Part shown: in pieces, positions 212 to 4,371 of the stretch
How positions within the stretch are numbered: the stretch's first letter is position 1
Layout of the letters: each line of letters opens with the position of its first letter
Source of the DNA: Lentilactobacillus sp. Marseille-Q4993
GTDB taxonomy: Bacteria > Bacillota > Bacilli > Lactobacillales > Lactobacillaceae
NCBI RefSeq assembly: GCF_951230165.1
Contig: NZ_CATNVB010000005.1
Span: 1 to 64,000 of the forward strand
Length of the DNA stretch: 64,000 nucleotides
Direction of reading: 5' to 3'
The notes under the pieces: model-generated
What the model saw: the letters and a program-made list of their open reading frames with translations, nothing else
The model's database searches: none
Told to the model about the DNA's origin: nothing
Made by a program: the position numbers and the translations under genes

Positions 212-2737
212 CTAAGCCTTTTTCTGTTCTTCAAAATTTTTAAATGTTAGGTACGCCCCTGCTTCCTGGTCAACCGTACCGTCATGTTGATTAGATTGAA
301 GTTGACTAAACGGAAAGACAGAAGTCATTGTGGAACGCCGCTTATGATTGAAACTGGTAAGTTGTTCCTGTATTTGGGTTTTGTCTAACTTACCAAGATA
401 CTTTTTGACGAGAGTTGCGACCCAATCGACACCAGTTGTTTTAGTTAAAAAGGCGGTTTCTGTTATCGTTACTGGCCTGATCCCAACAAATTCATAACCG
501 TCAACCTGGCGATTAAACATAATTTGAACCAGCCCCTGCCAGTAATCAGTGTTAATTATCTGGGTTACAGTGTCTACCAGAATTTCAGTATCCGTTTCCC
601 AATGGAGCATCGGTTCGCTAAGATTGTACAGGTATTTCAGTTGCTTGTTGTTACTGTCCTTGGCGTTTGAAAACTCAATCGTTGTTATAGGTGTAACCGT
701 CGTACCATCAATAAAAACATCAATTGCATTAGTTGCTTGATTATCGTTGTATTTTGCAATTTTTTGATCTGGTGGTAATAGCACGATATTCAAATCAGTA
801 AATTTCTTTAATTCAGTAGATAGGAAGTGACGATTACCTGGTAAAAATACAACATTAGGGTGTTCAAGGTCAATAATATTCAGAATATTTCCAAGTTGAA
901 TTGGCTCAATGTATTTTTTATCACTTAACTGTGGAGATAAAGAAATGGCATTGGGATTGGTATTCATAATTATTGTTCGGTACCCTGTTTTTTTCAGAGT
1001 CAGTAAAATCTTTGCAGTATAGTAATCAGCAGCCGTATTTGGCCCCAATTGGTTACCGCCTCTACCAATTACGAGGGCAACTTTATCATCTGTCGAATAA
1101 CTTTCGCTTTCGTTCTCCATCTCATAACTAGAATAAAATGTATCGGTTGAATCGTTTAGCTCACCGGCACTTGGTTCTACCATTTTGAAGGTTACTTGAT
1201 TTGCTGACTCGGACCCAATCGCCCTAACGTCGTTAATGCTTAAATTCCACATCTCTGCTAGCATTCCGTCCCCAAACCCATACTTATGAGCTACGTCAAC
1301 TGCCTTTAATGTTCTAGGATGGTCAGCAACATACTTTTGCCCTCTAAGCAACTGGTTTAGTTTATAGAAATAAAACTTATCGATTTTGGTTAATTCAGAC
1401 AGTTCATCAATAGAAAAGCCTCTTCGCAGAGCTTCCATTAAAATTAAGATCCTGCTTGCAAGCGGGTGGATCAGTTGATTAATCAACTCATCTTCATCCA
1501 CTTTTGAAGTACTTGGTAAGATATCGCGGGGAGACAGTTGAGAACTATGTAAAGCTTTTAAAATAGCTTCTTCCACAGTTCTGCCGACCCCGATTGTGGA
1601 CCCGACTGCTTTCATCACGGTATTTAGGTGCTGATCAATATCTGGAATGTCTTCAAACGGCCAAATTGGAACCTTAACTAGCACGTGATCAGATGTTGGC
1701 TCCATGTATGCTGTGTATTTGCTATATTTGCTTGGCAGCTTGATTTCAGTTAGTGAATAACCCATTTCCAAAAAAGTTGAGATATACGAAATTGGATATC
1801 CGGTTGACTTGGCCGCCAAATTAGTATTTCTAGTAAAAAATGGGCTAACCTTAGTTACAAAATAAGAGCTAGTTTGCGAGTTAAGTGCAAATTGTATATG
1901 ACAAGTTCCCTTAATTCCAAGACTATCCATTATTGAAAACGTTGAGGTTCTTAGCGCTTGGTACTCTTTATTGAGTAGTGTTTGAGTTGGAGCAAAGATA
2001 ATTGAATCTCCTGAGTGAATTCCAATCGGATCCATATCTTCCAAACCAGAAACCAACATCTTGTTTCCCAGTGAATCCCTCACTCCAACCATTTCGATTT
2101 CTTTGTATCCTACAATACTCTGCTCGATTGAGCAGCGATTTATGTATGTTCGTTTTAAACTGGCTTCAATTGCATCATCGAGCTCGTCAGGGTTATTACA
2201 AATAAACCGGCTAGTATCGTGGCTTGAGGAAATTGGTTTAACGATAACCGGGAATCCAACTTCCCTAACAAAATCCATTGCCTCTTCCTCATTCGCAATA
2301 ATAACAGACGCAATTGTCTTTTCACCTATTTCAGTCAACGAATCTCTAAGCTTTTGATTATCAATAATCTTGGTGAGCTCCTGCGGGCCAATGCCGAGAA
2401 GGGAAATTTGTTGTTCTTCAAGGACTTCACTTTCGTACAGTTGCCATGCAATTTGGATTGCCTTTAGTCCTCCAATGGTTGGCATAACTGCATCTGGGTG
2501 CTCCTTTTCAATCACTGAAACAACGTTTGCAAAATTAACTTCTAGCGAATAGACATTAGCGGCTTGAACTTCTTCTGCAGACACAGAAAAAGGATTATTA
2601 TCGATATAAACTATCTTAGCGCCAGTTTTCCTGATGGCAGCAATGGTCTCGAAACAAGCGGCATCGTATTCATTTTCGTTCCCAATATTAGACGATCCAC
2701 TACCGATGATTAGGATTTTTTTAAAATCTTGTTTCAC
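212..2737 (-). CDS. carB: Degenerate carbamoyl-phosphate synthase large-subunit-like protein (CarB pseudoenzyme)
   Basis: This 841-residue protein is clearly homologous to CarB but is short of the usual ~1,060 residues. The first half keeps the family frame (GSG near 12, PTIGG 86-90, DPIGIHSGDS 236-245, STGYP 311-315). The glycine-rich ATP loop is replaced (ISSSHDTSRF, 169-178), and the metal/ATP motif EVNPR has become KVSPF (296-300). The second half starts near 552 (VIGRGG), but its ATP-grasp domain is cut to a remnant. Its EVNPRASRT counterpart reads GIRPVTITE (752-760). The C-terminal MGS-like allosteric domain is absent and replaced by a tail of about 55 residues. The GTG start lies inside the end of carA (17 bp overlap) behind AAGGAG, which implies coupled translation. 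Homology is certain. Lack of synthetase activity is inferred from the missing residues. The frame has no internal stops, so it is not simple decay. Confidence 0.85.
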   Translation of the reverse strand: MKQDFKKILIIGSGSSNIGNENEYDAACFETIAAIRKTGAKIVYIDNNPFSVSAEEVQAANVYSLEVNFANVVSVIEKEHPDAVMPTIGGLKAIQIAWQLYESEVLEEQQISLLGIGPQELTKIIDNQKLRDSLTEIGEKTIASVIIANEEEAMDFVREVGFPVIVKPISSSHDTSRFICNNPDELDDAIEASLKRTYINRCSIEQSIVGYKEIEMVGVRDSLGNKMLVSGLEDMDPIGIHSGDSIIFAPTQTLLNKEYQALRTSTFSIMDSLGIKGTCHIQFALNSQTSSYFVTKVSPFFTRNTNLAAKSTGYPISYISTFLEMGYSLTEIKLPSKYSKYTAYMEPTSDHVLVKVPIWPFEDIPDIDQHLNTVMKAVGSTIGVGRTVEEAILKALHSSQLSPRDILPSTSKVDEDELINQLIHPLASRILILMEALRRGFSIDELSELTKIDKFYFYKLNQLLRGQKYVADHPRTLKAVDVAHKYGFGDGMLAEMWNLSINDVRAIGSESANQVTFKMVEPSAGELNDSTDTFYSSYEMENESESYSTDDKVALVIGRGGNQLGPNTAADYYTAKILLTLKKTGYRTIIMNTNPNAISLSPQLSDKKYIEPIQLGNILNIIDLEHPNVVFLPGNRHFLSTELKKFTDLNIVLLPPDQKIAKYNDNQATNAIDVFIDGTTVTPITTIEFSNAKDSNNKQLKYLYNLSEPMLHWETDTEILVDTVTQIINTDYWQGLVQIMFNRQVDGYEFVGIRPVTITETAFLTKTTGVDWVATLVKKYLGKLDKTQIQEQLTSFNHKRRSTMTSVFPFSQLQSNQHDGTVDQEAGAYLTFKNFEEQKKA

Positions 2738-3834: not shown

Positions 3835-4371
3835 CTATTTTAGGATTTCAACGGCATCCTTACCATCAATTTCGTTAACGTAAACTTTGATCTTTTCCTT
3901 TTGAGAACTTGGTATGTTTTTCCCCACAAAGTCTGCCCGGATTGGAAGCTCTCTGTGGCCTCTATCGACTAAGACAGCAAGATTGATTGACTTAGGCCGA
4001 CCAAGGTCCATAACCGCACTAAGAGCAGCTCTGACAGTTCTGCCAGTGTATAAAACATCATCGACTAAAATGACCCGTTTGTTTTCAACTGAGAAGTCAA
4101 TGTTGTTGTTAGACATCTTGATTTCATCAATTGAAGTTGCATCATGTTCAATATCGTCACGATAGTTGGTAATGTCTAATTCACCAACTGGAATACTTAC
4201 GTTTTCTAATTGCTGAAGTCTGTTTGCGATTCGTTCAGCTAGGAAGACTCCTCTAGTCTTGATACCAATCAAAACTAGATCCTCGACCCCTTTGTTTCTC
4301 TCAACGATTTCGTAAGTAATTCTAGTCAATGCCCGTTGCATTGCCATTTTATCCAAAATATTCTTACCCAT
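3835..4371 (-). CDS. pyrR: PyrR, pyrimidine operon regulator / uracil phosphoribosyltransferase
   Basis: PyrR binds UMP and, in the family, attenuates pyr operon transcription by binding the nascent mRNA. Many homologues also have weak uracil phosphoribosyltransferase activity. The 178-residue length and the start (AMQRALTRI, 10-18) are typical. The PRPP-binding loop [13 protein letters not shown] lies at 100-112. It precedes the degenerate carA and carB genes. None of the other de novo pyrimidine genes is in the window. It has its own promoter at the end of rluD and an AAGGAG site. No PyrR-type antiterminator is visible in the leader. In Lactobacillus plantarum a second PyrR is reported to take part in inorganic-carbon control of pyr genes. 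Whether this is that paralogue cannot be decided here. Confidence 0.93.

Follow-up and report, generated by a model that had tools for sequence, protein, structure and literature searches.

Many lactic acid bacteria of the family Lactobacillaceae carry two genes, here called carA' and carB', whose products are homologous to the small and large subunits of carbamoyl-phosphate synthetase (CPSase), the enzyme at the head of pyrimidine and arginine synthesis. The pair was studied in Lentilactobacillus sp. Marseille-Q4993, where it follows pyrR in a stretch of 64,000 nucleotides (assembly GCF_951230165.1, contig NZ_CATNVB010000005.1, positions 1 to 64,000 of the forward strand), referred to below as the window. 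The catalytic residues of both subunits are lost and the proteins are conserved, so that the CarA'/CarB' pair is, as judged from sequence, almost certainly a conserved pseudoenzyme. The best explanation as a whole, with a probability of roughly 45%, is that the pair descends from the CPSase of an ancestral pyr locus and has been kept for a non-catalytic role linked to PyrR.

Degeneration of the active sites

The window proteins were aligned to Escherichia coli CarA and CarB, and E. coli numbering is used throughout. The catalytic and ligand-binding roles of Cys269, His353, Glu299, Asn301, Arg129, Arg169 and the glycine loop are taken to be those familiar from the CPSase literature. CarA' has the fold of the small subunit (Pfam PF00988 and PF00117) and scores above two NCBIfam equivalog cut-offs (NF009475, 402.7 versus 221; TIGR01368, 345 versus 307.35). 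Its catalytic Cys269 and His353 are replaced by Gly and Ser, and further replacements are Gln273 to Glu, Asn311 to Glu and His312 to Gln. In CarB', Arg129 is replaced by Asn, Arg169 by Lys, and Gly175/Gly176 by His/Asp, with the glycine loop gone. In the first ATP-grasp domain, Mg/ATP ligands are changed as well (Glu299 to Lys, Asn301 to Ser, Arg303 to Phe), and the ligands of the second half are replaced or deleted. Glu215, Gly241-Ile242-His243, Gln285 and Arg306 are retained. The absence of catalytic residues from both subunits, claimed by eye in the original prediction, is thereby confirmed.

CarB' is also shortened, with 841 residues versus about 1060 in a CPSase large subunit, and its TIGR01369 score of 539.7 lies below the cut-off of 1027. 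Pfam matches cover the CPSase domains D1 (as two segments), D2 and D3. ATP-grasp 2 and the MGS domain were not detected by Pfam in CarB', and the region of ATP-grasp 2 is deleted or unaligned. Three features of a large subunit are missing, namely a complete set of two ATP-grasp domains, the Mg/ATP ligands of ATP-grasp 1, and the MGS domain. In the PDB, the best match is to the large chain of E. coli CPSase (1bxr, profile positions 2-632). AlphaFold2 monomer models, computed from four aligned sequences for each protein, were too poor for use (mean predicted local distance difference test score of 44.9 for CarB' and 37.8 for CarA').

The same losses recur in other genomes. CarB proteins of this form constitute a class of about 830 residues, delimited by a best E-value below 1e-225, as judged by eye from the match table. 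The catalytic residues were examined in 48 pairs from the 174 genomes of this class; these represent 20 genera and comprise 24 pairs from Lentilactobacillus, six from other genera and 18 chosen among the matches listed as open. CarA position 269 is Gly in 48/48, and Glu299 of CarB is replaced by Lys in 45 and by Arg in three. CarA has 91 columns in which at least 21 of 22 canonical sequences share the same residue; 54 of them are kept in the 48 dead sequences and 17 are lost. For CarB (347 such columns), 68 are kept and 144 are lost, where kept means at least 90% and lost at most 10% of the dead sequences. Several new residues are fixed in at least 90% of the 48 sequences, namely C269G (48/48), Q273E, R291H, V297I and E338Q (48/48) in CarA' and, among others, T53S, G179R (47/48), N283H, E299K, N337L, Y354H, A380S and L463F in CarB'. 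Net charge per 100 residues is -2.5 in CarB' versus -4.9 in canonical CarB, and -3.6 in CarA' versus -2.8 in canonical CarA. A charge shift resembling that of RNA-binding proteins was considered and dropped, as CarB' is less negative, CarA' is slightly more negative, and the effect is too weak.

Conservation across the Lactobacillaceae

The form of about 830 residues is present in all 24 Lentilactobacillus genomes (that of the window and 23 others) and, by best E-value, in 174/301 Lactobacillaceae genomes from 21 of 40 genera. Two negatives fall inside otherwise positive genera, G214 with a completeness of 76% and G327 with a contamination of 7%. No member of the class was found in 94 genomes of other families (best E-value 7.9e-212). 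The pair is thus not peculiar to one strain.

Both frames are open in all 48 pairs. A single in-match stop was flagged in 11 of the 24 Lentilactobacillus sequences and is the terminal stop, located at the match end or up to three codons earlier. Between genera, CarB' shares 30-50% identity with the protein of the window. The dead CarA sequences form a single clade with a Shimodaira-Hasegawa-like approximate likelihood ratio test (SH-aLRT) support of 100 (39 sequences), and the dead CarB clade has a support of 82; nine Lentilactobacillus sequences were omitted from both trees. Codon analysis with the Goldman-Yang (GY) model across the 24 Lentilactobacillus genomes gave a ratio of nonsynonymous to synonymous substitution rates (omega) of 0.020 for carA' and 0.025 for carB', next to 0.055 for rluD, 0.046 for lspA and 0.006 for pyrR, on data with saturated synonymous sites and tree lengths of 28-62. 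The lone unsaturated Lentilactobacillus pair gave direct pairwise dN/dS values of 0.037 (carA') and 0.033 (carB'). Across six species pairs, identity ranges over 81.3-90.6% for dead CarA, versus 68.9-83.0% for canonical CarA in the same pairs.

The original prediction had taken the long open frames as a sign that the pair is intact and not decaying. This reading has held up: no broken copy occurs among the 48 pairs read, omega is about 0.02 and far from 1, though from saturated data, and the dead sequences form their own clade with shared lost residues. That the genes are recent pseudogenes which have not yet acquired stops, as the lost catalytic residues alone might imply, is rejected as next to impossible, given the open frames across 20 genera, the divergence of CarB' between them, the single clade and the low omega.

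Ancestry of the locus

Seven genomes without the ~830-residue form, from the Lactobacillaceae and from other families, share the gene order rluD-pyrR-pyrP-pyrB-pyrC, preceded by lspA in five of the seven and followed by canonical carA-carB. The dead pair takes the corresponding position behind rluD and pyrR, from which pyrP, pyrB and pyrC are gone. Related dead forms are found in further arrangements. Two genomes (G033 and G036) contain pyrR-pyrP-carA-carB with full-length dead subunits, in which Cys269 of CarA is replaced by Gly and Glu299 and Glu841 of CarB are lost; rluD precedes the genes in G033 and was not seen in G036. In three g54 genomes, a full-length dead pair immediately follows lspA-rluD without an intervening pyrR, and PyrR is encoded elsewhere. 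The g4, g9 and g52 genomes combine rluD-pyrR with a dead pair, and the CarB of the two read to the end has 797-800 residues.

All of these related CarA sequences have Gly at position 269, which suggests one early loss, although long branches may pull dead forms together. The grouping of all dead forms has a support of 83 for CarA, and canonical CarB falls on one side with a support of 96; long branches may affect both values. In another family, f4 (L068, L069, L196, L197, L202), a CarB of 577-579 residues and a CarA without Cys269 lie 3' of pyrR and, where seen, pyrB. No full-length CarB was found in those f4 genomes; other f4 genomes do have one.

Organisation of the gene unit

In the window, pyrR, carA' and carB' are arranged as a single unit between a promoter-like site and a terminator-like hairpin (Table 1). 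Gene calls and site patterns bear out the original description of a pyrR gene, a full-length CarA homologue and an 841-residue CarB homologue, including the 17-bp overlap of carA' and carB' (2721-2737). PyrR scores 268.6 against NF003548, with a cut-off of 218. Promoter-like sites across the region number 11 versus a shuffle mean of 15.5, and are thus not above shuffles; the strict promoter pattern 5' of pyrR occurs in 20/24 Lentilactobacillus genomes versus a shuffle mean of 0.03. The upstream neighbours are presumably rluD and lspA, names that were given without a family search.

Table 1. Features of the pyrR-carA'-carB' region in the window.
Feature	Position	Strand	Remarks
carB' (dead, shortened CPSase large-chain homologue)	212-2737	-	841 aa, GTG start; D1, degenerate ATP-grasp 1, D3, pre-ATP-grasp 2, divergent C-terminal remnant
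carA' (dead CPSase small-chain homologue)	2721-3812	-	363 aa, GATase fold, Cys269 to Gly, His353 to Ser
pyrR	3835-4371	-	178 aa; no second PyrR detected in the genome at E <= 1e-20
Promoter-like site TTGACA-17-TATGCT	4448..4420	-	Between rluD and pyrR
Intrinsic-terminator-like hairpin 3' of carB'	191..163	-	13 pairs, then T7
rluD-like gene	4455-5351	-	Conserved upstream neighbour, marker of the ancestral pyr-operon site
lspA-like gene	5354-5791	-	Second upstream neighbour

On the minus strand, the window also contains a class B RNase P RNA (8955-9336) and an FMN riboswitch (53111-53229).

PyrR and pyrimidine metabolism

The association with pyrR is widespread, as the original prediction had anticipated: in 44/48 pairs, pyrR is flanked by rluD and carA'. 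A PyrR is encoded in 174/174 genomes of the ~830-residue class (E <= 1e-30), and the PyrR-less genomes (12/301) all fall outside the class. All 24 Lentilactobacillus genomes encode a single PyrR, the one linked to the pair.

A second, canonical carAB, which the original prediction had proposed to look for, is indeed present in the genome of the window (L063 6586-10711), and so is pyrB. The canonical CarA retains Cys269/His353/Glu355. The canonical CarB retains Arg129, Arg169, Glu215, Gln285, Glu299, Asn301, Arg303 and Arg306 as well as Arg715, Glu761, Gln829, Glu841, Asn843, Arg845 and Arg848 in its second half. Five other checked sites differ from E. coli (E208Q, L210I, H754K, A785S, V822A). 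In another Lentilactobacillus genome, G001, canonical carB is split into frames of 675 and 326 aa (L143 1399-4400); match rows suggest a similar split in G005 and G023.

The dead pair also persists where canonical CPSase is missing. Thirty-six genomes were tested, namely the 35 members of the class that gave a single match, together with G020. CarB exceeded the TIGR01369 cut-off in 0/36, with both controls (G000 and G153) positive; one of the 36, G065, has a remnant of 263 aa. PyrB above its cut-off was absent in 28/36 and present in 8/36. The dead pair is retained even in genomes that lack pyrimidine synthesis.

PyrR RNA sites (E <= 0.01) were detected in eight of nine genomes searched, the exception being G020. 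In the auxotrophs G002, G014, G017, G069 and G270, the Pfam-tested PyrR sites include ones 5' of nucleobase permeases. The genome of the window has RF00515-like sites 5' of pyrB-pyrC and of two permease-like genes, which were named by eye; only one PyrR RNA site of this genome exceeds the Rfam gathering score. Its PyrR regulon seems to include pyrBC and the two permeases. Separately, a PyrR-type RNA site was noted just 5' of a gene for a phosphonate-binding-type ATP-binding cassette (ABC) substrate-binding protein in the pyrimidine-auxotrophic Lentilactobacillus genomes G002, G007 and G014 (L165 384-1325, L168 392-1381 and L173 392-1381, all on the minus strand). Pfam PF12974 matched in L165 and L168, the two scanned; the gene in L173 has the same length as that in L168. 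The protein may belong to an uptake system controlled by PyrR.

The second PyrR of Lactiplantibacillus plantarum

One genome, G293, contains both a live and a dead CPSase locus. Its second contig matches a 7218-bp plasmid of L. plantarum at 100% identity, and G293 is therefore L. plantarum or very near to it. Its operon pyrR-pyrB-pyrC with canonical carAB has PyrR RNA sites, and a separate locus has the order lspA-rluD-pyrR-carA'-carB', with no PyrR RNA site shown nearby. Two PyrR are encoded in all five g55 genomes searched. The two of G293 are 63.6% identical; those of L. plantarum were reportedly 62% identical in the 2006 primary study, in which a pyrR2 mutant is said to need high CO2 or arginine plus pyrimidine.

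In L. plantarum, lp_2704 is pyrR1, lp_2700 is carB and lp_1782 is pyrR2 (PMC7911632), and PyrR2 is reported to take part in inorganic-carbon control of the pyr operon. The PyrR of G293 that is encoded outside the pyr operon, with carA'-carB' behind it at the lspA-rluD site, is therefore most likely PyrR2, an assignment made from operon membership. No report on a dead pair beside PyrR2 of L. plantarum was found in the open literature searched. If the pair follows pyrR2 in the mutant's parent strain too, carA'B' could be involved in the mutant phenotype.

Proposed function and alternatives

In the proposed scenario, CarA'/CarB' would derive from a CPSase that was encoded in an ancestral locus of the order lspA-rluD-pyrR-pyrP-pyrB-pyrC-carA-carB, with pyrP, pyrB and pyrC disappearing from the locus in the dead-pair lineage. 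The two genes would have lost glutaminase and synthetase chemistry and been retained for a non-catalytic job. CarA' and CarB' may still form a complex, whose rebuilt ATP-grasp pocket (Lys for Glu299 and Arg for Gly179, corresponding to Lys296 and Arg177 in the CarB' of the window) would bind an anionic ligand without catalysis, and the complex would modulate the PyrR regulon. With CPSase CarA/CarB (PyrAA/PyrAB) the pair shares ancestry, gene order, its two-subunit make-up and the domains up to the second pre-ATP-grasp; it differs in lacking the catalytic Cys and His of CarA, the Mg/ATP ligands of CarB, most of ATP-grasp 2 and the MGS domain. Ammonia-dependent mammalian CPSase I likewise has a GATase domain without the catalytic Cys; however, both of its ATP-grasp domains are active, whereas those of CarB' are degenerate or missing. 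A regulatory or sensory role tied to PyrR is tentatively regarded as the likeliest job of the pair, at somewhat under even odds. A more specific version, in which the dead pair serves as the so far missing sensor in the PyrR2 branch and reads a CPSase-type signal (bicarbonate, a nucleotide or glutamine) for PyrR, is unlikely as it stands.

Several observations weigh against a PyrR-linked role. There is no PyrR RNA site above the gathering score in the window, and control of the unit by such a site was dropped on that ground. CPSase ligand residues are largely gone from the dead pair, and binding of CPSase ligands is therefore unproven. In the N-terminal half of CarB, identity across the six species pairs is lower in dead (70.0-84.1%) than in live proteins (79.3-88.8%). 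Linkage and even PyrR itself can be missing. In two g3 (Paucilactobacillus) and two g6 genomes, the pair lies beside rluD with no neighbouring pyrR, and their PyrR is encoded elsewhere and falls in a PyrR1-type clade (99/96). The g6 genomes G121, G172 and G253 have two PyrR each, and linkage may vary within g6. G062 (87% complete), G278 and G331 (both 99%) keep related dead pairs, of which CarA and the first ~500 CarB residues were read, and no PyrR was found in them. A strict dependence between PyrR2 and CarA'B' is weakened by the g3, g6, g54 and g34 genomes, and because of such exceptions the dead pair may act without PyrR in some species.

It is quite possible, though less likely than not, that the pair serves a conserved function independent of PyrR, for example nucleotide or nitrogen sensing for another target or a structural role, and that the adjacency of pyrR is a leftover of the ancestral operon. 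Besides the unlinked g3, g6 and g54 pairs and the three genomes without PyrR, this is favoured by the ancestral rluD-pyrR order, which is common to the full-pyr-operon genomes and makes the linkage partly inherited. It fits less well with the retention of pyrR in its place after rluD in 44 of the 48 loci despite the loss of pyrP, pyrB and pyrC there, and with the PyrR present in every genome of the class. The ligand-sensing or scaffolding complex for PyrR put forward in the original prediction is a candidate explanation, with linkage and co-occurrence in its favour and the exceptions above against it.

The remaining explanations involve enzymatic partners or activity. Dead paralogues that regulate a live enzyme are known, among them the Trypanosoma brucei prozyme, which is a conserved enzyme relative without catalytic residues (PMC5201418), and the genome of the window has canonical carAB and pyrB as possible partners. 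The prozyme, however, acts on a live paralogue, whereas the dead pair persists in the 36 genomes without canonical CarB above the cut-off, 28 of them also without PyrB. A regulatory partnership with live CPSase or aspartate carbamoyltransferase, through mixing of a dead subunit or channelling, is thus unlikely for at least 28 genomes and very improbable overall; it could hold in species with the live enzymes. Catalysis of a different reaction through a rebuilt active site would agree with the new residues fixed at former catalytic positions and with Glu215, Gly241, His243 and Gln285 of ATP-grasp 1 being mostly kept. It is nevertheless improbable, with the Mg ligands, glycine loop, nucleophilic Cys and catalytic His gone and ATP-grasp 2 largely deleted. 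As to decay, it is the live carB, not the dead one, that is split in G001.

Implications

The pair illustrates how a well-studied metabolic enzyme has become a pseudoenzyme kept under strong selection by many lactic acid bacteria. CarA' passes the NCBI cut-offs for the active small subunit and is therefore probably annotated as an active enzyme; annotation and metabolic models may thus credit pyrimidine auxotrophs with carbamoyl-phosphate synthesis that is absent. Furthermore, a response of PyrR2 to inorganic carbon could be mediated by the dead pair, which is a concrete candidate for this role. If the pair did act as such a sensor, pyrimidine synthesis or uptake would be tuned to inorganic carbon or nitrogen in L. 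plantarum and in much of the Lactobacillaceae, and the ancestral CPSase would have had a non-catalytic regulatory role able to outlive its chemistry.

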